A stretch of 51,307 nt of DNA, taken from Acidobacteriota bacterium. Its GTDB lineage: Bacteria > Acidobacteriota > UBA6911. A model generated the notes under the pieces. It was not told the DNA's origin and made no database searches. It was given only the letters and a program-made list of their open reading frames with translations. The translations under genes were made by a program, and so were the position numbers. Positions 5,052 through 44,829 of this stretch are shown in pieces. Position 1 is the stretch's first letter. Every line of letters starts with the position of its first letter. The stretch lies in NCBI GenBank assembly GCA_012719355.1, contig JAAYAM010000156.1, positions 1 to 51,307 of the forward strand. Direction: 5' to 3'.

Positions 5052-5071
5052 CCTGATGCGGAGGCTCTTTC

Positions 5072-11721: not shown

Positions 11722-11920
11722 TTCTCCTCCTTTGCCAGCCGTATCTGCGACTTTACGATTATTGCACAAATTCTAATTTTGAATCGCGAACAAATCCATA
11801 TGGAACATCGTTTCCACCCGGCTTTCAGCGAACTTTTTTTCTTCTTCCCTCTTGACTGCGGCGGAAAGACGCCTTATTTATTAGTCGTATACAGTTTCGC
11901 AACAAGGAAACGATGCAACT

Positions 11921-12292
11921 ATGAAACATTCAGAGGAATTGGCGATGCGGCAGAAGATCTTCGAAATGCAGTGCGAGATCTGCAAGGCTCTTGGGCATCC
12001 CGTCAGGCTGGCAATCGTCGACCGCCTCGACGAGCGGGAAATCGCGGCGGCGGACCTGCTGGAAGAACTGAAGATTTCGAAGGCCAACCTGTCGAAACAC
12101 ATGACGCTGCTCGTACACGCCGGCATCGTGGAACACCGGCGCGAAGGAAGGAATATCTTCTACAGACTCACCGATCCGGAGATCCACAGGGCCTGCACCA
12201 TCATGCGTTCGATTCTCTATCGACGGCTGAAACAGGGAGTAAAGCTGGCTTCGGCGATCACTCCGGAAGGAACCCATCGGGGGCTGCCATGA
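11921..12292 (+). CDS. ArsR/SmtB-family transcriptional regulator
   Basis: A 123-residue winged-helix DNA-binding protein. The core starts at CEICKALGHPVRLAIVDRL. The recognition region AADLLEELKISKANLSKHMT and the wing HRREGRNIFYRLTDPEI are typical. Two cysteines spaced CxxC (Cys18 and Cys21) sit just before helix 1 and could bind a metal or thiol-reactive effector, which is inference. The stop overlaps the next gene (ATGA at 12289-12292), so it heads the second efflux operon and is the obvious candidate for repressing it. The preceding 130 bases (11779-11920) are AT-rich and would hold promoter and operator; I cannot define the site exactly. Confidence 0.88.
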   Translation: MKHSEELAMRQKIFEMQCEICKALGHPVRLAIVDRLDEREIAAADLLEELKISKANLSKHMTLLVHAGIVEHRREGRNIFYRLTDPEIHRACTIMRSILYRRLKQGVKLASAITPEGTHRGLP

Positions 12293-13659
12293 AACGACCA
12301 CGCCATCACCGGGACTGGATCCTCACAATCATCTGGGCGGCTCTGTTCGCCCCTTCGCTCGTATCTCAACAGAAGTTGACGCTTTCGGAAGCAGCTGCAC
12401 GGGCGCTCGAAAACAATCCAGACCTTGCCGCCGATGCGCCCGGCCGGCAGGCTGCACGGGCTGAATTCAAAGCGGCCAGGGCGGGATACCTGCCGCGGCT
12501 CGACTTCGAACAGTCGTATCTTGCCGGTAACAATCCCGTATTCGTCTTCTCTACCCTGCTTTCGCAGCGGCGCTTTACCGCCGCGAATTTTGCCCTTCCC
12601 GAACTGAACAACCCGTCCGCCATAGACAACCTGCAGACCAGGGCGACCGTGCAGCAGACGATATGGGACTTCGGCAGGACCAGGAGCATGCGCGAGCAGG
12701 CACGGCTGGGAATCGACATCGCAGACCAGACACACCAGGATCATGTGCGCGGGGTTATGCTTGCGGTGTTTGAGAGTTACTACTTCACATCTCTGGCCCG
12801 GGACACACTCGAGACGGCACGAATCGCGCTCCGATCGGCGGAAGTGCTGGAGCAACAGGCAGAAACCCGCGTCGCCAGCGGCCTTGCGGTCGAGGCGGAC
12901 CTGCTGCGCAGCCGCGTACATCTGTCGGCCGCCAAACAGCAGGAGATCCAGGCGCAGGGCGAACTCGAAAGGGCGAAGGCGCGGCTCAACCGCCTGATGG
13001 GATACGGCCTGGATCGTGCCACCGGCGAAACCGCACCTCTTGCCATCAAGGAACTTGTGCTCCCCTCTGAAGAGACCCTCATCGAGGAACAGAAACGACA
13101 CCGTCCGGACTATGAGAACCTTCGCGCACAACTGCGCCGGGAGCAAGCTGTGGTGCGGTCGCTCGAGAAGGAATTTCTGCCCGTAATCGCCGGCTACACT
13201 ACCTGGGAAGCCGACAATCCTTCTCTCAACGTCTACGGGGGGAGTAATTGGGCGGCGGGCATAACACTGCGCTGGAACCTTTTTTCAGGAGGGAGCGACA
13301 GTGCCCGGCTCGAGGCGGCGCGACACCGCCTGGAACAGAAGCGCCGGCAGCTGTCGGCGATGGAATCGGCGATGGCGCTCGAACTGCGCGACGCCCTGAT
13401 TCAATACCGCGCCGCACAACAGCAGGTCGAGGCCGCCCGGGCCGCGGCTGCTCAGAGCGATGAAGGGCTCCGGATCCTGAGGAACCGGTACGACGCGGGG
13501 CTCGCGACCATGACCGATCTTCTTTCGGCTGAGACGGCGCGCAGCAACGCCGGTACAAGCCTCTCGCAGGCTGTGTTCCAGCAACTGCTCAGCTTTGCCA
13601 GAGTTGAATATGCTGCCGGCATCCTCAGTCCGACCTCGCCGGCAATGAATCTCGATTGA
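12289..13659 (+). CDS. TolC-family outer-membrane efflux protein (second RND system)
   Basis: A 456-residue outer-membrane channel protein. A signal peptide around IIWAALFAPSLVSQQ is followed by two OEP repeats. The first starts LTLSEAAARALENNPDLAAD and includes VQQTIWDFGRTRSMREQARL. The second starts near EEQKRHRPDYENLRAQ and includes RWNLFSGGSDSARLEAARH. The C-terminal helix reads RYDAGLATMTDLLSAETARS. The frame is open back to 11779, but the upstream part overlaps the regulator gene in another frame and lacks protein-like features. The ATG at 12289 overlaps the regulator stop, indicating coupled translation. Confidence 0.9.
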   Translation: MKRPRHHRDWILTIIWAALFAPSLVSQQKLTLSEAAARALENNPDLAADAPGRQAARAEFKAARAGYLPRLDFEQSYLAGNNPVFVFSTLLSQRRFTAANFALPELNNPSAIDNLQTRATVQQTIWDFGRTRSMREQARLGIDIADQTHQDHVRGVMLAVFESYYFTSLARDTLETARIALRSAEVLEQQAETRVASGLAVEADLLRSRVHLSAAKQQEIQAQGELERAKARLNRLMGYGLDRATGETAPLAIKELVLPSEETLIEEQKRHRPDYENLRAQLRREQAVVRSLEKEFLPVIAGYTTWEADNPSLNVYGGSNWAAGITLRWNLFSGGSDSARLEAARHRLEQKRRQLSAMESAMALELRDALIQYRAAQQQVEAARAAAAQSDEGLRILRNRYDAGLATMTDLLSAETARSNAGTSLSQAVFQQLLSFARVEYAAGILSPTSPAMNLD

Positions 13660-13675
13660 TCTGAGGAGGCTGCTG

Positions 13676-14869
13676 ATGAAATCCAGAACTTTTACGGCGC
13701 TACTGCTGGCATCTGCTCTCGCATTGCACATCGCCTGTGCCGATAAGGGCGCAGAGACAACATCCACGGACCCGCAACCGGTGTCCGCACGCGTGTCCCA
13801 GGTCAACTACCAGACCGTTCCGGGACAGATAGAAGTCCCCGGGACTGTGCAGCCACGCAACCGCATCATACTCTCGGCTCAGCTGAACGGCTTCGTCCGC
13901 GATATGCATGTCCGGGTGGGAGACACGGTAAGGCAGAACCAGCTACTCGCGACGCTCGATGCGCGTGATGCCAAAGGCCAGCGCGCAGCGGCGCTTGCAG
14001 CCGTCAGTGCCGCCGAAGCCGCGCTCGCCGAAGCGCGCAAGTCCCACCAGTCGGCAGCAGATATGAGGACAGCAGCCAAAGCCGCCACCGACCTGGCAAC
14101 CCAGACACTCACCCGTTATCAGAAGCTTTACGAAGCGCGTTCGGTCTCGCCACAGGAAATGGACGAGGTCAGGACACGGCATAACACGAGCATGGCTGAA
14201 TTCGCATCGAGGGAGGCGATGGTCTCAGCAGCAGAAGACCGCATACGGCAGGCCGAAGCCCGCATAGAACAGGCAAAGGCACAGGCGGCGCGCGCGGAGG
14301 TGATGATGAGCTGGACAACGCTCAAGGCTCCCGCCGATGGCCGTGTCGTGCAGCGCCAGGCCGATCCGGGAACAGCGATCTTCCCCGGCACCCCGATCCT
14401 TGTGATTGAATCCACGGCAAGGCCGCAGGCGGTTGCCGACATTCCCAGCAGCAATGCCGCACTGCTGCGCCCCGGCATGTCCGTCAGGGTCAGATCCGTA
14501 CAGGGTGCCGTTGCAGAAGGAAAGATTGCGGAAATCGTGCCTCTGTCCGACCCGTCGACCCACAGCGTGCAGTTCAAAGTCGATCTTCCGGCGGATTTTC
14601 AGACCACGACCGGCCAGTTTGTCGCGGTCGAGGTGCCGTCTAAAAGCCGCAATGCGCTTCTGGCGCCCCGCACGGCAGTCCGGGAGACGGGACAGCTCAC
14701 CGGAGTCTTCGTCGTTGGAACGGATTCAAAAGCGCGTTTCCGGCTTGTCAAAGTCACACCGTACGATGCTGAACACTATGAAGTCCTTTCCGGCCTCGAG
14801 TCCGGCGAGACAATCGTGTCCGGTTTGAATAGCCGGATTACTGATGGCGTCACCGTAAAGGCACAGTGA
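13676..14869 (+). CDS. RND efflux periplasmic adaptor subunit (second system)
   Basis: A 397-residue membrane fusion protein with an N-terminal export signal ending at HIAC. The Cys suggests a lipoprotein, although the lipobox is not canonical. The first lipoyl half-motif ([20 protein letters not shown]) is followed by a long Ala/Glu/Gln-rich coiled hairpin at about 90-210. The second half ([19 protein letters not shown]) and beta-barrel domains follow. An AGGAGG site precedes the ATG. The end overlaps the alternative start of the permease gene. The gene order regulator-channel-adaptor-permease differs from the first system. Confidence 0.9.
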
Positions 14870-14898
14870 AGCAGAAACCCGATTCTGGAGATCCGGTC

Positions 14899-17800
14899 AT
14901 GAGCACACCGCAGATAGCAGGAAAGCTGGCCCACGCCTTTATTCATTCAAAACTCACGCCGCTGATCCTCATCGCATCAATCGCGTTTGGAGCTGCCGCC
15001 GTGGCGCTCCTCCCCAGGGAAGAAGAACCACAGATCATAGTTCCTATGATCGACGTGATGGTATCCTTCCCCGGCGCTTCCGCAAAAGAGGTTGAAACCC
15101 GCATTACCAGGCCGATGGAACGGCTGATCTGGGAGATACCGGGCGTGGAATACGTCTACTCGACTTCGAGTCCCGGCGCGAGCCTTGCCATCGTCCGCTT
15201 TTATGTCGGGGAAGACGAAGAGAACAGCATCGTCCGGCTGAACCAGAAGATGTTCGCAAATTTCGATCTCATCCCGCCCGGCGCCTCGCAACCGCTGATC
15301 AAGCCGCGATCCATCGACGACGTCCCATTCCTGGCCCTGACTTTGTGGAGCAGAACACTCGATGGGTTCGAGATACGGCGGGCGGCGGCGGAACTCAGGA
15401 ATGAACTGCAGCTGATACCGGACGTGTCCGAAACGCAACTCATCGGCGGCCAGAGGCGCACTCTGCTCATAGAGCCGGATCCCTCAAAGATGGCTTCGTA
15501 CGGAATCAGCACCTCGCGCCTTACGGGCGTGCTGCAGGCGGAAAACCGCGCCACAGACGCGGGCGTGATTACACGCAACAACGAAGCTCTCTCGGTTCGC
15601 CTCGACGGCTTCCTCAGAGACGCCGAAGATGTCGGGAACCTGGTTGTGGGAGTGCAGAACAACATTCCGGTCTATCTGCGCGACATAGCCAGGATTTCAG
15701 ATGGCCCTGACGAACCCGCCGATTACGTTTTCTTCTCCGCCGGCGCCGCTGCGGAAGCCAAAGGAATCTCACCTCCAGACATTCACCAGCAGCCCCTTGT
15801 GAGCCTTGCCCCGGTCCTGGCTTCCGGATCAAACATCGTAAGTGATCTGATGCCCGCGGTGACCATTACCTTCGCAAAGCGCAAGGGGACAAACGCGGTG
15901 GTCCTTGCCGAGGCGGTGCTGGAAAAAGCCGAGCGTTTCAAAGAAGCGCATTTCCCAGCTGAGCTGCAGATGACCGTGACGCGGAACTACGGCGAGACCG
16001 CCTCGGAAAAGTCGAACGAGCTTCTGCTTCACATGATGATAGCGGTCATCTCGGTCACGATCCTGATCTGGCTGATCCTGGGGCTCCGTGAAGCCGGAGT
16101 AGTTGCAGTGGCGATTCCGGTTACGCTGGCCCTGACGCTTGTCGTCTTTCTCCTGTATGGCTATACCTTGAACCGGATCACGCTGTTTGCCCTCATCTTC
16201 TCAATCGGGATCCTGGTGGACGACGCTATCGTCGTCATAGAAAACATCGTGCGGCACAAGCGGCTCCCGGAAAATCACGGACGTCCTTTCATCGATGTTG
16301 CCGTCGAAGCGGTAGACGAAGTTGGGAACCCGACAATCCTGGCCACTTTCACCGTAATAGCCGCGATCATTCCCATGGCCATGGTGCGTGGCTTGATGGG
16401 ACCGTATATGCGTCCAATCCCGATTGGCGCCTCTGCCGCCATGATCTTTTCGCTGCTGGTAGCCTTCGTCATCACCCCTTGGGCTGCCCAGCGCTTCCTC
16501 CGCGGAGCACACGGGGGACACGAGGAAGGAGAGACGGAAAGCCGCAGCACCAGGCTTTACCGCTGGTTCATGGGGAAGCTCCTCGCACGGGACAGGAACC
16601 AATGGGTGTTCCTCGGGATCGTCACGCTGCTGCTGATCGGAGCCGTGACCATGGTCTACTTCAAGCTGGTGGTGGTCAAGATGCTCCCGTTCGACAACAA
16701 GAGCGAGTTCCAGGTGATCGTCGACATGCCGGAAGGAACCAGCCTCGAAAAGACCGCCGCCGCCACGCGGGCGTTGGCCGCCGAGCTGAACCGGGTTCCG
16801 GAAATCACTGATTACCAGATCTACGTCGGCACGGCCTCTCCTTACAACTTCAACGGCCTCGTCAGGCACTACTACATGCGCCGTGGTGAAAATGTCGCGG
16901 ACATCCAGATCAACCTTACCCCGAAAGGGAAACGCTCAAGGCAGAGCCATGCAATCGCTCGGCAGGTGCGCGAACGCCTCCTCCCCGTTGCGGATCAGTA
17001 CGGCATCAGGATGAAAGTTGCGGAGGTGCCGCCCGGCCCGCCTGTGCTCCAGACGCTTGTCGCTGAGATCTACGGCCCTGACTATGAACGCCAGATCGAA
17101 GTGGCCCGGCAGTTGAGAACCATACTGGAAGAGACCCCCGGCGCGGTCGACGTCGACTGGTATGTTGAAGACCGGCAGCCGGAGATGGTGTTTCACTTCG
17201 ACAGGCTTAAGGCTTCGCTTGCAGGGGTCTCGACAGGTGAGGTCCAGCAGGCCGTGGCGCTTGCCCTCGACGGAGTGCAGCCGGGACTCCTGCACCTCCC
17301 GAACGAAGCCGAAGATATGCCTTTGAAGCTCCGTCTTCCTCTGAACAGCAGATCGAGCATCGACGACCTGAACAGCCTAAGGATTCCGTCAGCTTCAGGC
17401 CGCCTGGTCGCCCTCGGCGAACTCGGAACCTGGAAGAAGTCAGTGCGCGACAGGAACATCTACCACAAGAATCTCATGCCGGTGGTGTATGTGACAGGGG
17501 ACGTCGCCGGGCGGGAGGAAAGCCCCGTCTATCCGATACTCGCGATGAACGAAAAAATCAAATCACTGCAGCTGCCGGAAGGATACCGTCTCGACACGTA
17601 CACGGCGACTCAGCCGCCGAGTTCAGAAAGGCTGGCGATGAAGTGGGACGGCGAGTGGCATATCACCTATGAAGTCTTCCGGGATCTTGGGCTCGCCTTC
17701 GCCGCTGTTTTGATTCTCATCTACTTCCTGGTAGTTGCATGGTTCCAGGATTTCAAGACTCCCCTGGTGATCATGGCCGCGATTCCCTTTTCGCTGGTGG

Positions 17801-18183
17801 GCATTCTCCCGGGCCATTGGGCCATGGGCGCCTTCTTCACCGCGACGTCGATGATCGGATTCATCGCCGGTGCAGGAATCGTGGTGCGCAACTCGATCAT
17901 ACTCGTAGACTTTATCGAACTCCGGCTGAAGATGGGAGAGCCGCTGGCACAGGCGGTCATTGATGCGGGAGCCGTACGGTTCCGTCCGATGATGCTGACG
18001 GCCGCAGCAGTGGTAGTCGGAGCAACCGTGATTCTGTTCGATCCTATATTCCAGGGACTGGCGATTTCACTGATGGCTGGAGAGATCGCGTCACTGCTCC
18101 TCAGCCGTATGACGGTGCCGGTGCTCTTCTACAGGATGCGTCGCCGCGAACTGCAGAACGCGCCCGCCGGATCAACAAACTAG
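14899..18183 (+). CDS. RND efflux pump permease (second system)
   Basis: Inner-membrane pump of 1094 residues from ATG 14899, which has GGAG eight bases upstream. A GTG at 14866 overlapping the adaptor stop would add 11 residues and cannot be excluded. TM1 is followed by [20 protein letters not shown], characteristic of a subfamily distinct from AcrB. The TM4 relay motif is intact (GILVD441-D442[12 protein letters not shown]), while the Lys940 equivalent of AcrB is Arg997 ([13 protein letters not shown]). Two porter domains and about twelve TM segments are present. It forms one operon with the ArsR regulator, channel, adaptor and the small membrane protein downstream. The substrate is unknown. 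Confidence 0.92.
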
Positions 18184-30052: not shown

Positions 30053-31885
30053 TCACGCATCGATTCCGTCCCTGAAGGTGATTTCCCCCGAGCGCGGCGC
30101 CGTCCACCACAGAACGGTCCATGGCCCAAGCGTCCGTCCTCCATCGGCAAGATTCCCTTCCTTCCATATCAGCCACGGCGGAGGAGCTGTAAAACCGCCG
30201 ACCGCCGATTGCGAAAGATTGGCTGCGAGCGTAAGAACGGACGAGCCGGAACACCAGCGCACAATCACGGCACCATCTCCTTTCGTCACGTATTCGCCAC
30301 CGGTCCTGATTCCGGGAATCAGAGGGATCACGAATTCACGCCGTTTGGCCAGGATTCTCCAGTACCAGCGCAGCCACTCGCGGTGCTCCGGTTCATCCAG
30401 CTGATCCCAGTGCAGCACGGCCGAACGGAATGTTTCTTCAGCCTGCGGGTCGGGAATACGCTCCCGCTGCTCCGGATCCTGAAATGCGGGAAATTTCGCA
30501 AACTCGTTCCGGCGGCCTGTTTTCACAGCCGACGCCAGATCGGGCCCGAAATCGCAGAAAAAAGGAAAGGGCTGCAGGCAGTTCCATTCCTCACCCATGA
30601 ACAGCAGCGGCACCTGCGGCAGCAGCAGATAAACGGCTGCAGCTGCCCGCACCGCCTTCCGCGGAGCAAGCGTCGAAATACGGTCGCCGAACGCCCGGTT
30701 GCCGATTTGATCGTGATTCTGCAGAAACGAAACGAAAGCGTCGGCGGGAAGATGCCCGGACGGCTCTCCCCGCGTCCTGCCTCGATATGACATTACCTGC
30801 CCCTGAAACGAAAACCCCTCCGCGAGAGCACGTCCAAGTTTCCCGGTATCGCCGCAGTAGTCGGCGTAATAACCGGTCCTCTCGCCGGTGACGGCAGTGT
30901 GGAGAGCGTGATGTACGTCGTCATTCCACTGCGCCGTGTAGAAGCACGGCGTCATTCCATCATCATGACGCTCCAGCCAGGAAGCCTCGTTGTTGTAGTT
31001 TTCCAGGACCAGGTGAACGGTGCGTTTCGACGCGGCACGGACACGTCTCGCAAGTTCATCAAGTATGTGTACCGGACCGTCGTCTTTAATCGCATCCACG
31101 GCATCCATCCGGAGCGCGTCGATGTGAAACTGCTCAACCCAGTATAGTGCGTTGTGAATGACGAACTCACGAACCGGCTGACATCCCGGGCCGTCGTAAT
31201 TGATCGCGTCGCCCCACGGGGTCTTGTGCGTCCTGGTGAAGAACTCCCGCGCATAAAGCGAGAGATAATTTCCTTCAGGACCGAAGTGATTGTAGACAAC
31301 GTCCAGCACGACCGCGAGGCCACGCCGGTGCGCGGCTTCGATAAACGCCTTCAGGCCCTCCGGCCTGCCGTAAGCTGTCGCCGGGGCATACGGCAGAACG
31401 CCGTCATAGCCCCAGTCGCGCTTTCCAGGGAAGCAGGCGACCGGCATCAGCTCGACAGCCGTGACTCCCAATGCGGCAAGATGATCGAGTCTTCCGATTG
31501 CTGCAGAAAACGTCCCCTCCGAAGTGAATGTTCCGATATGCAGCTCATAGATGACGTATTGTTCCCACGGCGCCCCTTTCCACCCACCCTCATCCCACTG
31601 CCAGCTTTCCGTATGCACCAGTTCGCTCGGTCCGTGGACGCCTTCCGGCTGATAACGAGACGCGGGATCGGGAACCCGCATTCCGTCAGGCAGAACAAAG
31701 CAGTAGCGCGATCCCGGACCTGTCCCCGCGGTTATGAGTTCGTGCCATCCAGCAGATGAAGGATTCATCGCGTGCCGCGCACCGGCCAGCTCTATTTGAA
31801 CGCGTTCGCAGGAAGGAGCCCATAGACGGAAACGCACTGTCCCGTCATTCCGAATTACCGGTCCATGGGGATTCTCAGAAGACAT
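30053..31885 (-). CDS. treZ: Malto-oligosyltrehalose trehalohydrolase (TreZ)
   Basis: GH13-family enzyme that releases trehalose from maltooligosyl-trehalose, about 610 residues. An N-terminal E-set/CBM48-like domain (TVRFRLWAPSCERVQIEL) precedes the barrel. Barrel motifs are DVVYNHFGPEGNYLSLY, the nucleophile region DALRMDAVDAI, the acid/base region VLENYNNEASWLE, and VSFLQNHDQIGNRA. A C-terminal beta-domain follows. The start at 31885 has GAGG six bases upstream; ATGs at 31891 and 31912 are alternatives. The usual partners TreY and TreX are not in the window. Trehalose made this way would serve as an osmolyte or stress protectant. Confidence 0.92.
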   Translation of the reverse strand: MSSENPHGPVIRNDGTVRFRLWAPSCERVQIELAGARHAMNPSSAGWHELITAGTGPGSRYCFVLPDGMRVPDPASRYQPEGVHGPSELVHTESWQWDEGGWKGAPWEQYVIYELHIGTFTSEGTFSAAIGRLDHLAALGVTAVELMPVACFPGKRDWGYDGVLPYAPATAYGRPEGLKAFIEAAHRRGLAVVLDVVYNHFGPEGNYLSLYAREFFTRTHKTPWGDAINYDGPGCQPVREFVIHNALYWVEQFHIDALRMDAVDAIKDDGPVHILDELARRVRAASKRTVHLVLENYNNEASWLERHDDGMTPCFYTAQWNDDVHHALHTAVTGERTGYYADYCGDTGKLGRALAEGFSFQGQVMSYRGRTRGEPSGHLPADAFVSFLQNHDQIGNRAFGDRISTLAPRKAVRAAAAVYLLLPQVPLLFMGEEWNCLQPFPFFCDFGPDLASAVKTGRRNEFAKFPAFQDPEQRERIPDPQAEETFRSAVLHWDQLDEPEHREWLRWYWRILAKRREFVIPLIPGIRTGGEYVTKGDGAVIVRWCSGSSVLTLAANLSQSAVGGFTAPPPWLIWKEGNLADGGRTLGPWTVLWWTAPRSGEITFRDGIDA

Positions 31886-31999
31886 GCGCATCCTCGATTC
31901 GTCGGGAGGCAACTGTGGATGAGAAACTATAGCGCGCCCGCTTCTGCATCACAAGGAGCAGCAGAAAAACTAATGAGCTGCACGAACCCATTAGATGAT

Positions 32000-32213: not shown

Positions 32214-32259
32214 AAAACTGCCAGCGGTGGGAACCGATGGCTCTAAAGGAGAAAAGAAG

Positions 32260-33261
32260 ATGAGCACCCAGCCCAGAGTTTTGATTGTGGATGATGAAGC
32301 GGCGCTGCGCCGGCAGGTCATGATGGGACTTGCACAGCACGGATTTGAGGTAGAGGAATGCGAAGAAGGACTATCTGCGTTGTCGAAGCTGAAGTCAGCG
32401 GAATCCAAACAGAATCCATTCGGCTGCGTTATTCTGGACGTGCGGCTCCCTGACATTGACGGCCTCAAGATCCTTTCGGTGATCAAGTCGATCTACTCCG
32501 AGCTGCCGGTGGTCGTCATCACCGGATATGGAAACGAGGACACGATCAACACGGTGCAGAGCCACGGCGGCAGCGTTTATCTCGACAAGCCGTTCGAAGT
32601 CGACGACCTGGTGCATCACATTCGCCGCATCGCGCCGAAAGCGGAACCCAGACCGCGCCGCAAGGTGGCGACCGAACCGCATGTGCTGACCAGCGGACTG
32701 GTCTTTGTGCGCGGGGCCAAGGATGCGGATCTCTATGACATATATTCCAAACTCTATCTTGCCGACGGCGTCTGCTACTGCGACCCGGTGCTCGGCGACT
32801 GGGACATTGTCCTCCTCATCCAGGCCCGGAATCGCAAGTCTCTCCAGCAGATCGTCAACACACACATTCAGTCGCTGGACGGCGTGGAAGCATGTGAAGT
32901 CCACTACTGCGAGAAACCGGCGATTTCAAGGGAACTGGAGGAGTTCATCCAGGATTATGAAAAAGTCCAGGCTATGAACAACCCCGATGGTGATACAATG
33001 GGCGGCCGCAATATACGCAAGGCCACATCTTATGCCATTCTGGATGTGGATCCTGGGAAGCTGTCGAGTCTCTATATGAGACTTTACTTTACAGACAACG
33101 TTGTCCATTGTGACGTCACCGACGGCGGCAAGGAGATCATCCTCTTGCTGCAGGGAATTTCAACACAGGAGATCCAGAATACGATCCGCAATGAAATCCG
33201 CATGATTCCGGGCGTGCTTCGTATCAAGCAACTCAACACATTGAACTTCTCATCCAAGTAA
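32260..33261 (+). CDS. Response regulator with two Lrp/AsnC-like ligand-binding domains
   Basis: A 333-residue protein. Residues 1-125 are a receiver domain with phospho-acceptor D60 (ILDVRLPDIDG) and K110 (LDKPF). No DNA-binding helix-turn-helix follows. Instead there are two repeats of about 75 residues with the alpha-beta pattern of the AsnC/Lrp C-terminal domain. One spans about 145-220 (LTSGLVFVRGAKDADLYDIY, GDWDIVLLIQARN, VEACEVHYCEKP). The other spans about 250-330 (SYAILDVDPGKLSSLYMRLY, GGKEIILLLQGIS, VLRIKQL). ATG 32260 is preceded by AAAGGAG. It is the first gene after the sigma-54 promoter and lies 19 bases before the NuoE-like gene. It may sense a ligand or signal by protein contact rather than bind DNA. 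Confidence 0.8.
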   Translation: MSTQPRVLIVDDEAALRRQVMMGLAQHGFEVEECEEGLSALSKLKSAESKQNPFGCVILDVRLPDIDGLKILSVIKSIYSELPVVVITGYGNEDTINTVQSHGGSVYLDKPFEVDDLVHHIRRIAPKAEPRPRRKVATEPHVLTSGLVFVRGAKDADLYDIYSKLYLADGVCYCDPVLGDWDIVLLIQARNRKSLQQIVNTHIQSLDGVEACEVHYCEKPAISRELEEFIQDYEKVQAMNNPDGDTMGGRNIRKATSYAILDVDPGKLSSLYMRLYFTDNVVHCDVTDGGKEIILLLQGISTQEIQNTIRNEIRMIPGVLRIKQLNTLNFSSK

Positions 33262-35626: not shown

Positions 35627-35668
35627 CTGCTGCGCTCCTTTTTGAGGACAGGATTAGAGGCAATAAGA

Positions 35669-38600
35669 ATGGCTACAGAAATCGAACGAAAGTCTATTTC
35701 AGTCGAGCTGCTGATTAACGGAAAGAAAGTGTCGGAGGCCCCCGGTCAGACGATCCTCGATGTCGTACGCAAGCACAACCTCGATGAAATTCCGACGTTG
35801 TGCCATGATCCCAAGCTGGAACCCTACGGCTCCTGTTTTCTGTGCGTGGTAGAGGTGAAAGGAGCTCCCAGGCTTGTTCCCGCGTGCGTCACACGAATTC
35901 GCGACGGAATGGAAGTCACCACCAGGAGCCAGCGCATCGTCACCGCGCGCAAGAGCGCCCTCGAGCTTCTGCTGTCGGACCACTACGCCGACTGCGTCTG
36001 TCCGGGACAGCGCGCATGCCCGGCCGGCGTCGACATTCAGGGCTACATGAGTCTTGCCGCTCTCGGTTACTACGGCGAAGCGCTCGACGTCGTCCGCGAG
36101 CGCAACCCGCTGCCGGTCGTCTGCGGCCGCGTCTGCGTGAGGAAATGCGAGGTCAACTGCCTGCGCACTAACGTCGACGAGGCCGTCGGCATCAATTTCG
36201 TGAAACGCTATGTCGCCGAACACGGAGGCACAAAGCCGAAAAAACCGCAAGGCGTTGAAGAGAGCGGAAAGCGCGTCGCCGTCGTAGGCGGCGGGCCCGC
36301 AGGGCTCACCTGCGCCAATTACCTCGCGATGAAGGGACACAAGGTCACCATTTTCGAATCGCTCCCGAAACTCGGCGGCATGCTTCGCTATGGCATTCCC
36401 GAATACCGCCTTCCCCGGAAAGAACTGGATGACGAGATTCAGGCTATCCTAGATCTGGGCATTGACGTCCGGCTGGAGAAAACCCTGGGGAAGGATTTCA
36501 CAGTTCAGAGCCTGATTGAGAAGGATCGCTTCGATGCGGTATTCATCGCGCTCGGAGCGCCGCGCGGCAAGAAGATGGGGCTGAAGAACGAGGACGTGAT
36601 CGAAGGAGTCAGTCCCGCGCTCGACTTCCTGCGCGATTGTGAACTGCACGGCTACCCCAGACTGAAAGGAAAGGTAGCGGTCATGGGAGGCGGGAATTCG
36701 GCGATCGATGCCGCCCGCACAGCCCTGCGCTGCGGAGCAGATGAAGTGACCATACTGTACCGGCGCACCCGCAACGAGATGCCGGCGCACCACGAAGAAG
36801 TCGATGCCGCAGAAAAGGAAGGAGTCAAACTCGAGCTGCTCGTCTCTCCACTGGAACTGATCGCCGAAAACGGAAAACTCAAGGCGATCCGCTGCCAGCG
36901 GATGGAACTCGGCGAACCCGATGCCAGCGGGAGGCGCAAGCCGGTGCCGATCGAGGGCGCCGTGACCGACTTCGAATGCCACTACATATTCGCAGCCATA
37001 GGACAGGACACCGATCTTTCGGCGCTCGACGGCGAACCGAAAGACAGGCTCCCCGCGCGAAACAAGTGGTCTACTCTCGAAACCGAAAGCTCCACCACGG
37101 CAACAAACGTGAAGGGCGTGTTTGCAGGCGGTGACGTGGTGCTGGGCCCGTCTGCGGTGATCGACGCGATCGCTCACGGCCGTTCCGCAGCTCTGGCAAT
37201 CGACGGCTACCTGTCGACGGGCGAGATCAACCGGCCCGCACCCGATTTCAGGAGCAGCCGCGATTTCTTCGGCCAGATACCGGAATCCGTTTTCGAAGGC
37301 GTCGAACAGAGTCCGCGTGCCCGGATGCCTGAACGCGAGGCATCCGAACGGGTGAATGATTTCGTCCAGGTGGAACTCGGACTTGACGAGCCGCAGATCA
37401 GGGCGGAAGCTTCGCGCTGCATGGAGTGCGGCTGCAAATCGGTGTTCGGCTGCGACCTGAAACGCTATGCCGCAGAATATGACGTCGATATAGCAAGAGT
37501 CGCCGGAGAAGTCCGGCGACACACCGTGGACCGCAGTCATCCGCTGATCAGCCTTGATCCCAACAAGTGCATCCTCTGCGGCCGCTGCATCCGGACCTGC
37601 GCCGACATCGTCGGTCTTTCGGTGCTCGGATTCGTGGGGCGAGGATTTGCCACTACCGTGCGTCCCGCTATGGGCCGATCAATGGCTGAAAGTTCCTGTA
37701 TCGCGTGCGGCGCCTGCATCGAGAGCTGCCCGACCGGCGCGCTCGAAGCGCGTTTGCAGTATGGAAGGCAGGGCCCGTGGAAAACCCACAAGGTCCCTTC
37801 GGTCTGCACCTTCTGCTCCGTCGGATGCGATCTCGATCTGAACGTCGTCGCCGACGGCCTCATGTGGGCGACAGCCCCTGAGGTTTCGTCGCTCGGACGC
37901 GGCGAACTGTGCAAGAAGGGACGCTTCGGCACCGGTCTGATGCAGGGAGCGGACCGGCTGCGCAAGCCGCTGATCAGGAAGCACGGCAAGCTTGTAGAAG
38001 CCGGCTGGGACGAGGCGATAGAGGCCGCCGCAGGAGTGCTGCAGGTCATGGCGAAAGCGACCGGCCCGGAAACCGTAGGTGTTTTCGCGGCGCCGCGCAT
38101 GACGCTTGAAGAAGCGCTCCTGGCGCGCTCCGTCGCCGATGCACTCGGAACCACGCAGGCGGGAAGCTTCGGGCAGACTCGGCGCGGTGGCCCGCGTCAC
38201 GATCTCGATGAGATACTCGGCGATACGGCTTCCACCTGCACAATGAAAGATCTCGACAAGGCGGAACTGATCGTGGTGGCCGGCGCCGATCCCGGCGAGA
38301 CTCATCCGGTTCTCGGAATGGCGATACGCCGGGCCCTGAACCGCGGAGCCGAAATGGTGGCTATCAACTCGAGCCGAATAGATCTGCTCCGCAGCCAGGA
38401 TCTGTGGCTCGACGCCCGTCGCGGCACCGCCGGAACCATCTACGCAGCCGTCATCTCGCAACTGCTGCAAAACGCACCCGACCGTCCGGAGCTGGAAGTC
38501 CTCAAGGCCTCCGTCGCTCCCCTTTCGCTTGACGGAGCTGCGCTTGTCTCAGGCGTCGACGCTGGCAAACTCCAGTCGTTCGCCGAAAAGATGGCAGCCG

Positions 38601-39304
38601 GCCGGAAGACGGTCGTGGTCTATGACCTCGACGAAACGCTCGAGCGCTCGACGGACGACCTGAAGGGACTGGCACAGCTAATGGCCGTTGCGGGTCACCT
38701 CGGGGAACCGGGAGAAGGGCTGCTGCTCCTGAGAGCTGACTGCAACAGTCTTGGGGCGAAGCTGGCCGGGCTCGACAGGGCGATCGATGTCGAAAAGATC
38801 CGGGGGGTGCTCGTGATGTTCGAGAATCCCTACGGCGATTACCGTGCACAGAGACTCCTGACCGGACTCGAAGCGCTGGTGGTGGTCGATCATTTCCTGA
38901 CCGAAACCGCCCGTATGGCCGATGTCGTGCTACCGGCCGCAACCCTTGCCGAATCCGAGGGGACGGTAATCAGCTTCGACGGACGAGTTGTGGGAGTCAG
39001 ACCTGGAAGCACGCCGGCAGCGGGACTGAGCAACTCCGAAGTACTCGGGAGACTCGCAGCGGCGCTGGGCAGAACCGCGCCGTCACTGGATCCGGCAGCC
39101 CTACGGACGGCGCTCGGTTCGGCTGTAGGAATCGATGCTTCGGCACTGGAACAGGCGCGCAGCACGCAGGGCGTCCTGCCGTCCGCGATCCATGAGCCAA
39201 GACCGGCCGCATTGCAGATCGATTCGACCGCTTCGATCGCGAACTTCTTCCCGTACGCTACTCTCGATGGGATTCTGGAGAAGAAACTTCAGGAGATGAG
39301 TTAG
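35669..39304 (+). CDS. NuoG-like/NfnB-like/molybdopterin-oxidoreductase-like fusion subunit
   Basis: 1211 residues from ATG 35669 (AGAGG eight bases upstream). Module order: a [2Fe-2S] domain (about 8-90, LCHDPKLEPYGSCFLC) and a NuoG-type His/Cys segment (SDHYADCVCPGQRACPAG). Next is an NfnB/GltD-like unit (about 120-540) with the cluster motif CGRVCVRKCEVNC, FAD site VAVVGGGPAGL and NADPH site VAVMGGGNSAIDAARTALRC. A 2x[4Fe-4S] ferredoxin domain (CILCGRCIRTC, CIACGACIESC) follows. The last part is a molybdopterin-oxidoreductase-like region from about 710 (CTFCSVGC, later LCKKGRFG) to the end. That region lacks the Cys/Sec-containing active-site segment of formate dehydrogenases, so it is probably structural, as in NuoG. 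With the NuoE/F subunits it could link NADH, NADPH and ferredoxin pools. It resembles Stn-family transhydrogenases, but the last domain is an apparent addition. Confidence 0.85.
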   Translation: MATEIERKSISVELLINGKKVSEAPGQTILDVVRKHNLDEIPTLCHDPKLEPYGSCFLCVVEVKGAPRLVPACVTRIRDGMEVTTRSQRIVTARKSALELLLSDHYADCVCPGQRACPAGVDIQGYMSLAALGYYGEALDVVRERNPLPVVCGRVCVRKCEVNCLRTNVDEAVGINFVKRYVAEHGGTKPKKPQGVEESGKRVAVVGGGPAGLTCANYLAMKGHKVTIFESLPKLGGMLRYGIPEYRLPRKELDDEIQAILDLGIDVRLEKTLGKDFTVQSLIEKDRFDAVFIALGAPRGKKMGLKNEDVIEGVSPALDFLRDCELHGYPRLKGKVAVMGGGNSAIDAARTALRCGADEVTILYRRTRNEMPAHHEEVDAAEKEGVKLELLVSPLELIAENGKLKAIRCQRMELGEPDASGRRKPVPIEGAVTDFECHYIFAAIGQDTDLSALDGEPKDRLPARNKWSTLETESSTTATNVKGVFAGGDVVLGPSAVIDAIAHGRSAALAIDGYLSTGEINRPAPDFRSSRDFFGQIPESVFEGVEQSPRARMPEREASERVNDFVQVELGLDEPQIRAEASRCMECGCKSVFGCDLKRYAAEYDVDIARVAGEVRRHTVDRSHPLISLDPNKCILCGRCIRTCADIVGLSVLGFVGRGFATTVRPAMGRSMAESSCIACGACIESCPTGALEARLQYGRQGPWKTHKVPSVCTFCSVGCDLDLNVVADGLMWATAPEVSSLGRGELCKKGRFGTGLMQGADRLRKPLIRKHGKLVEAGWDEAIEAAAGVLQVMAKATGPETVGVFAAPRMTLEEALLARSVADALGTTQAGSFGQTRRGGPRHDLDEILGDTASTCTMKDLDKAELIVVAGADPGETHPVLGMAIRRALNRGAEMVAINSSRIDLLRSQDLWLDARRGTAGTIYAAVISQLLQNAPDRPELEVLKASVAPLSLDGAALVSGVDAGKLQSFAEKMAAGRKTVVVYDLDETLERSTDDLKGLAQLMAVAGHLGEPGEGLLLLRADCNSLGAKLAGLDRAIDVEKIRGVLVMFENPYGDYRAQRLLTGLEALVVVDHFLTETARMADVVLPAATLAESEGTVISFDGRVVGVRPGSTPAAGLSNSEVLGRLAAALGRTAPSLDPAALRTALGSAVGIDASALEQARSTQGVLPSAIHEPRPAALQIDSTASIANFFPYATLDGILEKKLQEMS

Positions 39305-39317: not shown

Positions 39318-39349
39318 CAGGTCCGGTTCCCGGCCGGGAACCGGACCTG
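39318..39349. terminator. Perfect 32-base palindrome after the oxidoreductase genes
   Basis: Positions 39318-39333 (starting CAGGTCCGGTTCCCGG) are exactly complementary to 39334-39349. In RNA this gives a stem of about 14 base pairs with a minimal loop, 14 bases after the fusion-subunit stop. No T-tract follows. It may attenuate transcription into the two-component genes or protect the upstream mRNA 3' end. The rest of the spacer to 39439 shows no clear promoter. Confidence 0.55.
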
Positions 39350-39439: not shown

Positions 39440-40894
39440 ATGGACCAGCTCTTCGTCGAAAAGGAGTTGTTCGGCCGGCTGGCCTGGTTCATTAAGGTCA
39501 GGTGGGCTTTCATCGTAGGACTCCTCCTGACCCTGCTGATAGGCCGACTCTACGGAATAGAGCTCCCCTTCGTGAAAATTCTGGCGGTGGGCGGATTCAT
39601 TTTTCTTTACAATCTCGGCTTTTTCATCCGTCACAAGCAGGTTGAAAGAAGAGGAGGACCCGATTTCCGCCGCGTCCAGATTGTCGCCAATCTTCAGATA
39701 TACGCCGACTATCTGTCGCTGACCTTCATTATCCACTATGCAGGCGGGGTCGATAATCCATTCATCTTCCTTTACCTCCTCCATGTCATCATAGGGAGCG
39801 TCATGCTCCGCCGCCCGCAGGTGTGGGCCCAGGGACTCTTCGCATATCTGCTGTTTCTGTCGGTCGCAATCCTGGAGTATTCGGGAACGATACCTCACTA
39901 CACCATCGAAGAAATCGGCACCCGCTACCACAACCCGTGGTACATCCTAGGCGTCAGCGTTACGCTTCTTGTCGTTTTTCTAAGCACGATCTATATGAGT
40001 TCGACCATCGTGCAGGATCTCCGTGACCGCGAGTACGGCCTTATGCAGGCGCGAAGCATGCTGCAGAAGAAATCGCTCGATCTCGAGGAGGCCAACAACG
40101 AGCTTCGTGAAAAGCAGCAGCAGCTTGTACAGTCGGAAAAACTGGTCTCGCTCGGCAGGCTCTCCGCGGGCATGGCGCACGAGATCAACAACCCCATCCA
40201 GTTCATCCAGGGAAACATGCGTATTCTGAGCGAAGCCATGGACTGCATGCTCCCGATCATGGACAGGTACGTTGAGACAAACCCCGACTTCAAGGTCGCC
40301 CGGCTCGACTACCCGGTTTTCCGGCAGCACATCACGGTGCTGCTGAAGGACATGTCGAACGGCACCGTCCGGATCTCCGACATCGTGAGAGACCTCAAGA
40401 AGTTCGCCCGCGCCGAGGAAGGGACCTACAACGATCTGGTTGATGTCAACGATGCTATTCAGTCGAGCATGAGGCTTGTGCATAATAAGATCAAGCGGCA
40501 CAAAATCAAGCTCGCCCTGGATCCGAGCCTCCCCAAGATCAAGGGGAGCGGCAATAAAATCGAGCAGGTGATCGTCGCCAACCTGATTAACGCGGCAGAG
40601 GCCCTGGGAGACCGGCAGGACGGAATAATCGAGGTCACAACCAGCAGGGACAAAGAAGCCACAAGGGTGACCGTCTGCATTGCCGACAATGGTCCGGGCA
40701 TGACAGAGGAAGTCAAAAACAGGCTGTTCGATCCTTTCTTCACAACCAAGCAGAAGACGGGCGGAATGGGGCTCGGTCTTTCGGTGGCTTATGGCATCAT
40801 AAAGGATCATCAGGGGTGGATAGACGTGGACACGAAATTGGGAGAAGGGACGACTCTGCAGTACCACTTCCCGGCGGCAAGGAGTAAAGCATGA
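39440..40894 (+). CDS. Membrane histidine kinase with RegB-like quinone motif
   Basis: A 484-residue sensor kinase with about six TM segments in residues 1-195. Residues 102-108 read GGVDNPF, matching the GGxxNPF heptapeptide linked to quinone binding in RegB/PrrB redox sensors. The motif lies at the start of a TM helix as in those proteins. A coiled linker leads to HisKA with H247 (SAGMAHEINNPIQFIQGN). HATPase follows (NKIEQVIVANLINAAEAL, DNGPGM, GGMGLGLSVAYGIIKDH). The redox-active Cys of RegB at its usual distance from the His is not present; a Cys lies at about residue 269. The start has TAAGGAG upstream. The stop overlaps the NtrC-type regulator start (ATGA), so they are a cognate pair. 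Confidence 0.88.
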   Translation: MDQLFVEKELFGRLAWFIKVRWAFIVGLLLTLLIGRLYGIELPFVKILAVGGFIFLYNLGFFIRHKQVERRGGPDFRRVQIVANLQIYADYLSLTFIIHYAGGVDNPFIFLYLLHVIIGSVMLRRPQVWAQGLFAYLLFLSVAILEYSGTIPHYTIEEIGTRYHNPWYILGVSVTLLVVFLSTIYMSSTIVQDLRDREYGLMQARSMLQKKSLDLEEANNELREKQQQLVQSEKLVSLGRLSAGMAHEINNPIQFIQGNMRILSEAMDCMLPIMDRYVETNPDFKVARLDYPVFRQHITVLLKDMSNGTVRISDIVRDLKKFARAEEGTYNDLVDVNDAIQSSMRLVHNKIKRHKIKLALDPSLPKIKGSGNKIEQVIVANLINAAEALGDRQDGIIEVTTSRDKEATRVTVCIADNGPGMTEEVKNRLFDPFFTTKQKTGGMGLGLSVAYGIIKDHQGWIDVDTKLGEGTTLQYHFPAARSKA

Positions 40895-42300
40895 ATCGGG
40901 TTCTGGTGATCGATGACGATGTTGCTGTGCTGAACTATTTCATGATTCTGCTTACCCAGACGCAGCGCTACTTCGTCAGGGTCCTCAGCGACAGCTCAAA
41001 AGCGTTCGAAATGATCGATTCGGGCCAGTTCGACGCAATCCTGCTCGACATGGACATGCCGGTGGTGCATGGCCGGGAGGTGCTCGAATATGTGAAACAG
41101 AAGCATCCGGGCATCGAGGTCATCGTCATCACCGGGGTGGAGGACGTTCAGCTCGCCGTAGAGTCGATGAAGACCGGGGCATATGATTACCTGTGCAAGC
41201 CGGTAGACGAAACCCGCCTGCTCCTTGTCCTCGAACGGGCACTGGAACGGTCGCAGCTGCGTGACGAAATTTCAAAGCTGCGCGATCAGGCAAGGCTGGA
41301 AGGGTTGCGCCACAAAGAGGCGTTCAAAGGAATCATCACACAGAACAAGAGCTTTTTGCGAGTGCTTCAGCGCGTTGACCAGATCGCCGAAAGCGAGAAC
41401 TACGTTTTGATCTGGGGTGAAAGCGGCACCGGAAAAGAACTGGTGGCAAAGGCGATTCACCAGATCAGCCGGCGGCGCGACAAGCCCTTCATAGCGGTCA
41501 ATGCGGGTACCTTCGCCTCAGAACTCTTCTCTTCTGAATTCTTCGGGCATGAACGGGGAGCCTTCACCGGGGCCGTCAACAGCAAGGCCGGCTTCTTTGA
41601 AAAGGCGGATGGGGGAACCCTCATGCTTGACGAGATCGGAGAACTCGAACTGCCGGTTCAGTCGAAGCTGCTCCGTGTCCTGCAGGAGGGAGAATACTTC
41701 AGGGTCGGCTCGACAGAAAAGCGCGGTGCCGATGTCCGCATCATCGCCTGCACCAATAAAGACCTTGCGGAAGAAATCGAGAAAGGTCGCTTCCGCCGCG
41801 ATCTCTATTACAGGCTCAACATATGCTCGGTCTTCCTGCCCCCCTTGCGCGACCGGGAGGGAGATGTGGAGCTTCTCGCCAACTGGTTCCTCGAAAAACA
41901 CAACCACACCAATTCCAAATCCATTTCCCTGATCGAACAGGATGTGATCGATCTCTTGGAGATCTATGACTATCCGGGAAATGTCAGGGAACTCGACAAC
42001 ATAATTGCTGAAGCGGTCGTCGTCGAAACCGGCAGGACCCTGACCCGGCGCTCCCTGCCACGCTACGTGCTCAATGCGGTGAGCAGTTCGAGGAGTTCAA
42101 CGGTGCCGCCGTCGGAGCGCAAGAGCCTGAGCGATGTTGAAGCCGAGCATATACGGCACATGCTCGAGCTGACGGAGGGAAACAGGACGGCTGCCGCGGA
42201 GATTCTCGGCATTTCGCGTGTATCGCTCATCTCGAAGATCAAGCGCTACGGAATCGACATCAAGCCCGCCGGCGGCAACGGCCACACCGCCGAGGAATAA
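40891..42300 (+). CDS. NtrC-family sigma-54-dependent response regulator
   Basis: A 469-residue activator. The receiver has phospho-acceptor D53 (AILLDMDMPVVHG). The AAA+ domain has Walker A GESGTGKE near residue 175, the sigma-54-contacting loop GAFTGA, and Walker B GGTLMLDEIGEL. The Arg-finger region FRRDLYYRLNI is present. A Fis-type helix-turn-helix (EGNRTAAAEILGISRVSLIS) ends the protein. Translation is coupled to the kinase. Its obvious candidate target is the sigma-54 promoter at 32171-32186, nine kilobases upstream at the head of the same gene run. It abuts the convergent pyrophosphatase gene with no bases between stops. Confidence 0.93.
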   Translation: MNRVLVIDDDVAVLNYFMILLTQTQRYFVRVLSDSSKAFEMIDSGQFDAILLDMDMPVVHGREVLEYVKQKHPGIEVIVITGVEDVQLAVESMKTGAYDYLCKPVDETRLLLVLERALERSQLRDEISKLRDQARLEGLRHKEAFKGIITQNKSFLRVLQRVDQIAESENYVLIWGESGTGKELVAKAIHQISRRRDKPFIAVNAGTFASELFSSEFFGHERGAFTGAVNSKAGFFEKADGGTLMLDEIGELELPVQSKLLRVLQEGEYFRVGSTEKRGADVRIIACTNKDLAEEIEKGRFRRDLYYRLNICSVFLPPLRDREGDVELLANWFLEKHNHTNSKSISLIEQDVIDLLEIYDYPGNVRELDNIIAEAVVVETGRTLTRRSLPRYVLNAVSSSRSSTVPPSERKSLSDVEAEHIRHMLELTEGNRTAAAEILGISRVSLISKIKRYGIDIKPAGGNGHTAEE

Positions 42301-44829
42301 TTACACCTCTTCGGAGTCTTCCGGGCTTTCCTTTCTGCTCTGCCGGAAAGCCCACCCTATGCCGGCAACGCAGACGGCAACGAACAGAACGCTGATCAGG
42401 GGCGACTCACCGCGATTCGACATAAGGCTGTAGCTGAGGACAAGCCCCAGCGACAACAGGCTGACCATGTTCATCACTTTGATCAGCGGATTGATCGCCG
42501 GACCGGCAGTATCCTTCAACGGGTCTCCGACCGTGTCACCTGTTACCGCCGCTTTGTGAGCCTCCGATCCTTTGCCTCCGTAGTGCCCGTCTTCGATCAG
42601 CTTCTTGGCGTTGTCCCAGGCACCGCCGGAATCCGCCATGAAGACCGCCAGCAACTGCCCCACCAGAATCATTCCGGCAAGGAACCCTCCGAGGGCATAG
42701 GGTCCGAGAAGGAACCCGACCAGAACAGGAGACAGAATCGCCAGCAGGCCGGGGCCGATGAGCTCCTTCTGGGCGGTGTTGGTACAGATGTTGACGACAC
42801 GTCCGTAGTCGGGTTTCTTGATTCCCGCCCAGATATCGGTATCGCGAAACTGCAGACGGCATTCCTTGACGATGTAGAACGCCGCTCTCCCGACCGCACC
42901 GATCAGCATGCTGCTGAACAGGAACGGCACAGCTCCTCCGATCAATAATCCTACGAGCACCAGCGGTTCCGCTATCGTCAGCCTTGAAGCCTCGGCCATG
43001 AATTGACTGTCGCTCATCTGGTTTATCTTGTCTTCGCTGCCTACGGCAATCACCGCGATGAAACTGGCAAAAAGCGAAACAGCGGCTACTACCGCCGTCC
43101 CGATCGCGATCCCCTTGGTTTCAGCCTTAGTTGTGTTGCCGACAGCGTCCAGGTCGGCCAGAATCTGGCGTGCGCGGCGATAACTCCCCGGTGCCGTCTC
43201 CTCCATCTTCTGCGGTTCATACCCCATCTCCCCGATCCCGTTCGCGTTGTCGGCTACGGGCCCGAACACGTCCATGGAAATTGTGTTTCCAGTCAGGGTC
43301 AGCATCCCGATACCGGTCATCGCCACTCCAAAGGCGACAAACAGAGGACCGGCGCCCGCATAGCACAGCGCCGAGATCAGGATCGCACCCGCAAGCACCA
43401 GGATGGTCGTAACGGTAGCTTCGTATCCGACTGCGAATCCCTGAATGACATTGGTGGCATGACCTGTATCGCATGCTTTTGCCAGGCTCTTCACCGGTCT
43501 GTGGGCCGTGTGGGTATAGTAGCTGGTGACTTTGTTGAGCACGATTGCAAGCAAAACTCCTATAAGGCAGGTGTAGGCCGGCCGCAGGTCGAGACCCGGT
43601 ATTCCCAATCCGGCAAACCAGGAGAGCTGCAGCGGATCGCCGTTGGGAAACCCTCCCACTGCCATCGGATTCATCGCGATATACTCGGCGTCGAAGCGCA
43701 GGTAAAAAAACCCGAGGATGAAAAACCCGACCACGCTGATGATGGATCCGATCCAGAAGCCGCGGTGCACGCTGCGCAGCGCGGTGTCGGAAGTGTTACC
43801 GGCGCCCGCCTTGACCGTGTACGTACTGATGATCGATCCGACGACTCCTATGCCGCGCACCAGCAGCGGGAAAATGACCCCTATGTGGCCGAAACTCGCC
43901 AACCCCAGTATCATGGCCGCAACAATGGTCACTTCATAGCTCTCGAAGATGTCCGCCGCCATACCTGCACAGTCGCCGACATTGTCCCCCACGTTATCCG
44001 CGATCGTGGCTGCATTACGGGGATCGTCTTCGGGGATGTCTTTCTCGATCTTGCCTACCAGGTCGGCCCCGACGTCGGCCGCCTTTGTATAGATGCCTCC
44101 TCCAACCCGCATGAACAGGGCGAGGAGAGTGCCGCCGAATCCGAATCCCAGCAGAGCTTCATAGGCGTGTTCCCCATAGATCAGAAAGATGACGGTTCCG
44201 CCCAGCAGCCCGAGCCCGTCGGTAAGCATGCCGGTGACTGTGCCGGTGCGGTAGCCGAGTTGCAGCGCTTCCCCGTAGCTGCGCGTTGCAGCCGAAGCGA
44301 CGCGCAGGTTACCGGTCGTTGCCAGACGCATGCCGACAAATCCTACGGTCCAGCTGAAGAGTGCGCCTACAAGAAACGAGACCGCGCGCCCCCAGCGAAA
44401 TGCCTCCACCGTTCCGGTATAGGTCACGGCAAGGAGTATCGTGAGCACGATGATCAACGGGCCGATGCGCCTGAACTGCGCTGCAAGGTAGGCGTTTGCT
44501 CCTTCCCGTACTGCTGCCGCAATCTCCTGCATTCTCTGGGTCCCCCGGTCGGCCCGCACCACCTGTCGCGCCAGAAGAAACGCATAGAGGAGACCTCCTA
44601 TAGCTATCCCCAGTACCGCAATGAGAGCGACGATCTCCATCGCACTGTACCGTGGATCAGAAAACAGGGAAAAAGGGGTGAACTCTATTTCGCCGGGGCC
44701 AATCCCTTCCTGGGCCGTCAGCGCATGCAGCAGCCATCCCCCGGCGAAGAAGAAAGCCATGGCATAGAGGTATGCCCGCGGGGATGGAAACAGCCTGACT
44801 ATGGTGCTCGGGTTGCGTTTCATATTCAC
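42301..44829 (-). CDS. hppA: Membrane-bound proton-translocating pyrophosphatase
   Basis: An 842-residue integral membrane pump that couples PPi hydrolysis to ion transport, with about sixteen TM segments. The PPi-binding sequences are visible: YTKAADVGADLVGKIEKDIP, then DPRNAATIADNVGDNVGDCA, and near the C terminus DTVGDPLKDTAGPAINPLIK. The diagnostic segment GNTTKAETKG carries Lys, the signature of potassium-independent H+-pumps, where potassium-dependent forms have Ala. The N terminus is extended by about 60 residues with an extra TM relative to short forms. The start may be GTG 44829 (AGGA seven bases upstream) or ATG 44823. It would recover energy from PPi and support the membrane potential. 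Confidence 0.93.
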   Translation of the reverse strand: MNMKRNPSTIVRLFPSPRAYLYAMAFFFAGGWLLHALTAQEGIGPGEIEFTPFSLFSDPRYSAMEIVALIAVLGIAIGGLLYAFLLARQVVRADRGTQRMQEIAAAVREGANAYLAAQFRRIGPLIIVLTILLAVTYTGTVEAFRWGRAVSFLVGALFSWTVGFVGMRLATTGNLRVASAATRSYGEALQLGYRTGTVTGMLTDGLGLLGGTVIFLIYGEHAYEALLGFGFGGTLLALFMRVGGGIYTKAADVGADLVGKIEKDIPEDDPRNAATIADNVGDNVGDCAGMAADIFESYEVTIVAAMILGLASFGHIGVIFPLLVRGIGVVGSIISTYTVKAGAGNTSDTALRSVHRGFWIGSIISVVGFFILGFFYLRFDAEYIAMNPMAVGGFPNGDPLQLSWFAGLGIPGLDLRPAYTCLIGVLLAIVLNKVTSYYTHTAHRPVKSLAKACDTGHATNVIQGFAVGYEATVTTILVLAGAILISALCYAGAGPLFVAFGVAMTGIGMLTLTGNTISMDVFGPVADNANGIGEMGYEPQKMEETAPGSYRRARQILADLDAVGNTTKAETKGIAIGTAVVAAVSLFASFIAVIAVGSEDKINQMSDSQFMAEASRLTIAEPLVLVGLLIGGAVPFLFSSMLIGAVGRAAFYIVKECRLQFRDTDIWAGIKKPDYGRVVNICTNTAQKELIGPGLLAILSPVLVGFLLGPYALGGFLAGMILVGQLLAVFMADSGGAWDNAKKLIEDGHYGGKGSEAHKAAVTGDTVGDPLKDTAGPAINPLIKVMNMVSLLSLGLVLSYSLMSNRGESPLISVLFVAVCVAGIGWAFRQSRKESPEDSEEV

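Follow-up and report, generated by a model that had tools for sequence, protein, structure and literature searches.

An Acidobacteriota locus for a predicted Stn-type (NfnABC) electron-bifurcating transhydrogenase, with a genus-specific cysteine shift and a recurring regulatory flank

Stn enzymes serve the balancing of NADH, NADPH and ferredoxin in anaerobes and, in the available parts of the literature, they are reported from Firmicutes, Synergistetes and Thermococcales. For StnABC of Sporomusa ovata (PDB 8oh5 and 8oh9), PMC10482914 describes an StnC of 1172 aa, whose residues 683–1172 form a catalytically inactive, molybdopterin-enzyme-like FdhF domain; the clusters C1 and C2 of this domain lie off the electron path, and removal of the domain or of its ligands blocks the assembly of the tetramer. 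According to the same paper, K170 is essential and the lysine is strictly conserved among StnC sequences. Two further systems of this type are Nfn-ABC of Caldicellulosiruptor saccharolyticus, called electron-bifurcating in the title of PDB 9bov, and NfnABC (Nfn-Bfu) of Thermococcus sibiricus, for which electron bifurcation has been measured (PMC9304861). In the Bfu paper, the N-terminal and C-terminal cluster cysteines of the B subunit mark the bifurcating members. Here, a locus of the same kind, stnABC, is described from an Acidobacteriota bacterium (lineage UBA6911, assembly GCA_012719355.1); the window is the whole analysed stretch of 51,307 nucleotides of contig JAAYAM010000156.1.

The open reading frame (ORF) of stnC proved to be real, i.e., uninterrupted, with an ATG start and 1211 aa (table 1), and the program-made ORF call containing it starts at a TTG at 35642. 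The original prediction, made from the letters alone, had proposed that this polypeptide joins NuoG-type iron–sulfur (Fe–S) domains, a GltD/NfnB-like FAD/NADPH unit, a 2x[4Fe–4S] domain and a molybdopterin-oxidoreductase fold. Pfam recovered all these parts in the proposed order: Fer2_4 (residues 11–87), Fer4_20 (112–185), Pyr_redox_2 (202–504), the Fer4_Nqo3 dicluster (625–692), Molybdop_Fe4S4 (707–758) and Molybdopterin (763–1110, E 2e-32). The NCBIfam model PRK12814 scored 595.9 bits, under its cut-off of 916. Besides the two leading PDB matches given in table 1, there is a third one to NfnA of 9n5u, an entry which we take to be NfnABC of T. sibiricus, and it covers only residues 7–755.

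Genes of NuoE and NuoF type stand upstream of stnC, as had been claimed, with intergenic gaps of 78 bp (stnA–stnB) and 42 bp (stnB–stnC), and the order stnA–stnB–stnC is identical in all related loci holding all three genes. StnA is most similar to 9bov_C (E 4e-49) and 8oh5_A (E 3e-48), and the four cysteines of the latter are kept. StnB consists of an N-terminal thioredoxin-like part, an FMN/NADH domain, NADH_4Fe-4S and a C-terminal 2x[4Fe–4S] domain. Its best matches, 9bov_B (E 4e-253) and 8oh5_B (E 3e-249), both rank above those of the HydB type from bifurcating hydrogenases, and in the alignment to 8oh5_B over residues 3–578 the cysteines of the N-terminal thioredoxin-like site and of the C-terminal 2x[4Fe–4S] domain are kept. 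Since 9bov and 8oh5 provide the best matches of each of the three subunits, one and the same complex is indicated.

The resemblance to the Stn family that had been suggested is well founded, as all three subunits are homologous over their full length to two solved complexes, the best folds are 8oh5_C and 9bov_A, and two key residues are conserved. In detail, K179 of StnC aligns with K170 of S. ovata, the lysine ligand of the FAD-adjacent cluster, and R247 aligns with R239, the arginine of the FAD site. By homology, the ligands of the FAD-adjacent cluster would be C117, C156, C160 and K179, where the assignment of the cysteines is modelled on dihydropyrimidine dehydrogenase. The traits of the Stn/NfnABC (Nfn-Bfu, Type 1) enzymes are present, namely three adjacent genes (NuoE-like, NuoF-like and a GltD–NuoG fusion), a large subunit of StnC type, the lysine ligand and an StnB of BfuB type. 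Gene content, full-length homology and the conservation of the cluster, FAD-site and lysine residues are direct observations. The locus very probably encodes an electron-bifurcating transhydrogenase of Stn type (NfnABC or Nfn-Bfu Type 1), for which reaction, electron path and direction would be those of S. ovata. The novelty is modest: the locus is an ordinary member of Stn in a phylum with few descriptions of it, and only the cysteine shift and the regulatory flank described below are new.

The C-terminal part of StnC is occupied by the Mo-type domain, for which the original prediction had noted the lack of a visible active-site Cys or Sec. This is equally a direct observation, as the Cys/Sec–His pair of formate dehydrogenases is aligned with R838–R839. 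An intact Mo/W site with a catalytic ligand was looked for in the C-terminal region and was not found. Predicted alone (mean pLDDT 64.4), the domain has its best fold match in residues 679–1152 of 9bov_A (Z 28.3, 3.7 Å over 451 residues), and 8oh5_C gave Z 25.5. What did not stand is the idea that a degenerate domain had been added here, since the FdhF-like domain is already part of the published StnC structure (PMC10482914) and is therefore intrinsic to the family. In annotation, StnC-like proteins should not carry a formate dehydrogenase label.

Table 1. Features of the stnABC locus and its regulatory flank (window positions)
Feature	Position	Strand	Evidence
RR-AsnC gene: receiver and AsnC/Lrp ligand-binding domains	32227..33261	+	Pfam
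stnA, NuoE-like, 173 aa; [2Fe–2S] cysteines C85, C90, C126, C130	33281..33802	+	PF01257, E 3e-49
stnB, NuoF-like bifurcating subunit, 581 aa	33881..35626	+	Pfam; PDB matches
stnC, NADPH subunit	35669..39304	+	9bov_A, E 3e-244 over 14–1134; 8oh5_C, E 1e-223 over 12–1157
StnC [2Fe–2S] domain; ligands C45, C56, C59, C73	35699..35929	+	PF13510 (11–87); alignment
Shifted motif H105-xxx-C109-x-C111-xxxxx-C117-P vs canonical HxxxCxxxCxxxCP	35981..36022	+	Alignment
GltD/NfnB-like FAD/NADPH module, residues 112–516	36002..37216	+	PF14691, PF07992; alignment
2x[4Fe–4S] ferredoxin-like dicluster, C634–C644 and C677–C687	37526..37747	+	PF22117; alignment; Cys list
Mo-type [4Fe–4S] domain, C713-xx-C716-xxx-C720-...-C748	37787..37942	+	PF04879; conserved across homologues
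Inactive FdhF/NuoG-like domain, intrinsic to StnC	37955..39088	+	PF00384; fold match
R838–R839 at the formate dehydrogenase catalytic Cys/Sec–His position	38180..38185	+	phmmer alignments to 9t1s_L, 6tg9_A
Membrane sensor histidine kinase	39440..40894	+	HATPase_c, HisKA, weak 6TM_PilS
Sigma54-dependent response regulator; 4-bp overlap with kinase gene	40891..42300	+	Pfam

Taken over by homology from S. ovata, the mechanism would begin at the GltD-like module of StnC, whose FAD would be reduced by NADPH and from which electrons would move singly through the Fe–S clusters of StnC to the FMN in StnB. There, StnAB may divide them between NAD+, reduced at the FMN, and ferredoxin, reduced at the C-terminal 2x[4Fe–4S] domain of StnB, with movement of StnA as the putative gate. 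The reverse direction, from NADH and reduced ferredoxin to NADPH, is probably the physiological one. The C-terminal domain would hold no working Mo/W site and would have its role in assembly.

In comparison with the described systems, the window shares with S. ovata StnABC (PMC10482914 and PMC7483475) the subunits and their order, the domain order of StnC with its inactive FdhF-like domain, both of the key residues and the cluster set of StnB. On the contrary, the S. ovata enzyme is from Firmicutes, has the canonical HxxxCxxxCxxxCP motif, carries C114 instead of Ile, and is flanked by metVF/pabAB instead of two-component genes. Nfn-ABC of C. saccharolyticus (PDB 9bov, 9bp5) is the top full-length match of all three subunits and the top C-terminal fold match, but belongs to another phylum and has the canonical cysteine motif. 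The T. sibiricus enzyme is of the same type as that of the window; it differs by a shorter subunit (963 aa), a truncated FdhF-like region and the lack of one dicluster cysteine set which is intact in the window.

The cysteine shift distinguishes the genus of the window. The motif HxxxCxCxxxxxCP has the same number of cysteines as the canonical one, with one of them moved by two residues. It was found in StnC of the window and of the genus relatives L008, L009, L019, L020, L021 and L068 (L, G, C and f numbers are our own handles), i.e., in all members having an intact N-terminal region. Since L009 and L021 are apparently two records of a single genome, as are L008 and L068, the shifted form stands for five genomes. 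In a search with a degenerate DNA pattern, the shifted motif was matched in 5 out of 396 Acidobacteriota genomes, all within the genus. The canonical form, which is described as conserved and is not a defining trait of the Stn family, is found in S. ovata StnC, 9bov_A, T. sibiricus NfnA and the further homologues that were compared. In the tree of the NADPH module the genus forms one group (support 100/100), and thus the shift is a single evolutionary change; the deep order of S. ovata StnC, 9bov_A, the T. sibiricus sequence and the H-cluster forms does not resolve in this tree, where long-branch joins are unsafe.

Judged by the pattern of GltD and dihydropyrimidine dehydrogenase, the missing cysteine (C104 in S. 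ovata) would be a ligand of the second GltD-type cluster, together with the CxxC of the 584–589 motif and C164. C111 is likely the substitute ligand, and the AlphaFold model of StnC residues 1–1200 is too poor to place it. As a natural variant, the shift lends itself to studying the influence of ligand position on a bifurcating electron path.

Matches to stnC at E 1e-150 or better occurred in 15 of the 149 Acidobacteriota genomes sampled, and Stn loci are also found in metagenome-assembled genomes (MAGs) of Bacteroidota. From these occurrences, ferredoxin-coupled NADPH balancing of the Stn type is wider than the published tables. A literature search returned no relevant paper on 9BOV and none on Stn in Acidobacteria.

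Besides Stn, the genome of the window encodes an [FeFe] hydrogenase of group A6 and an NfnA–NfnB-like fusion protein (L043 451–2919, minus strand, G000:C140; PRK12778 1030.7 bits vs a cut-off of 1103), so both kinds of transhydrogenase may coexist; the Stn paper states that most species carry either the NfnAB or the Stn kind, not both. The H-cluster domain PF02906 has five matches elsewhere in the genome and none on the contig of the window. In accordance with the original prediction, a Pfam scan of the main ORFs of the window, which covered part of the small ones, revealed neither an H-cluster nor a functional formate dehydrogenase.

Three related proteins were observed aside. In the same genome, the beginning of a GltD-like module (Fer4_20, Pyr_redox_2) is fused to a NuoF-type protein, which is cut by the contig end and adjoins a NuoE-type gene (L055 3–2510, minus strand, G000:C19). 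In G037 a chain of 1161 aa (L054 132–3614, minus strand, G037:C33) combines an StnC-like [2Fe–2S]–GltD/NADPH–dicluster module with a complete [FeFe]-hydrogenase H-cluster domain and a small-subunit domain, and no stnA or stnB matches were found in the 20 kb read. An ORF related to this hybrid and of similar length is present in G158 (L072).

Several points weigh against the Stn assignment. The AlphaFold model of StnC residues 1–1200 (8 rows) is of low confidence (mean pLDDT 49.9), and Stn activity is a prediction from sequence. In the genus, a cysteine belonging to a conserved Fe–S motif lies two residues away from its usual place, and Ile123 stands at the position of C114 of S. ovata, where two other homologues have Val or Ile as well (PMC10482914); given the displaced cysteine and Ile123, the cluster potentials may differ. 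Finally, with a fused NfnA–NfnB-like protein in the genome, the principal direction or role of Stn may be a different one.

Other identities can be weighed on the same evidence. NfnAB (e.g., Pyrococcus furiosus 5jca) has a homologous GltD-like FAD/NADPH module (E 2e-79), but it has another partner subunit, Glu instead of Lys as cluster ligand, and bifurcates at the FAD and not in a HydBC-like module; it was rejected on the NuoE/NuoF partners and the Lys. HydABC-type [FeFe] hydrogenase was set aside as well, PF02906 being absent from StnC by Pfam. The matches to PF00384 and PF04879, and the formate dehydrogenase chains that rank just after StnC/NfnA by sequence and fold, would suit a Mo/W enzyme, formate dehydrogenase or another, that has an NADPH module and whose C-terminal domain carries a pterin cofactor for the oxidation of a substrate. 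This is extremely improbable and was rejected on the catalytic position, where both Cys/Sec and the following His are replaced; moreover, Pfam gives no Molydop_binding match, and formate oxidation, assayed with purified S. ovata Stn, was absent (PMC7483475).

A non-bifurcating reductase of the Nso/Sfr kind, sharing subunits and passing electrons from NADPH to NAD+ or to an acceptor such as sulfur, oxygen or metal, is very improbable. StnC is similar in sequence to NsoC and SfrAB (PMC7483475), and the shifted motif could disturb electron transfer; yet StnB holds all B1–B4 cysteines, some of which non-bifurcating relatives reportedly lack, and both the S. ovata complex of the same overall architecture and the T. 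sibiricus homologue bifurcate. Least credible is a complex I-like or NADH:quinone module (NuoEFG) that has an inserted GltD domain and works at the membrane: families of the NuoE/F/G type are matched, but StnB has an extra C-terminal ferredoxin domain, and the module was rejected since no membrane Nuo genes stand beside stnABC and the closest relatives are the soluble Stn/NfnABC.

Regulatory genes flank stnABC on both sides (table 1). The RR-AsnC gene lies 19 bp upstream of stnA, and Pfam found no helix-turn-helix or other DNA-binding domain in its product. The order of the six genes (RR-AsnC, stnABC, kinase and sigma54 regulator) is shared by the genus relatives L008 and L052, by four genomes from two genera of family f34 (G034, G083, G138, G129) and by G016 of family f25, i.e., it recurs in three Acidobacteriota genera besides that of the window. 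In Bacteroidota, the RR-AsnC gene is upstream of stnA in L012 and L013 and the kinase/sigma54 pair is downstream in L011; no single contig among those examined carries all six genes. The upstream gene is kept only in part in G037, and the regulators are absent from the stretch read in six Acidobacteriota loci (G021, G056, G098, G068, G043, G030). The association is recurrent, not universal. The available parts of the Stn papers make no mention of such a flank, and in a promoter scan sites were no more frequent than in shuffles.

The flank provides a testable handle on the control of such enzymes. It is a doubtful proposal that in this genus a cluster ligand on the only electron path of StnC went from CxxxC to CxC spacing, the cluster concerned being most likely two steps away from FAD, that this alters the potential or direction of the transhydrogenase, and that a dedicated two-component cassette controls the enzyme by redox state.

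A perfect 32-bp palindrome, CAGGTCCGGTTCCCGGCCGGGAACCGGACCTG, lies at 39318–39349, in the gap that follows stnC and precedes the kinase gene, and has no T run. Convergent with the sigma54 regulator gene is a membrane H+-pyrophosphatase (42301–44829, minus strand; PF03030, 795 bits). Elsewhere in the window, malto-oligosyltrehalose trehalohydrolase TreZ is encoded at 30053–31912 on the minus strand (718.9 bits vs a cut-off of 538.8), and two RND-type efflux gene sets (562–6361 and 11779–18183) comprise HlyD-like, AcrB-like and outer-membrane efflux proteins.

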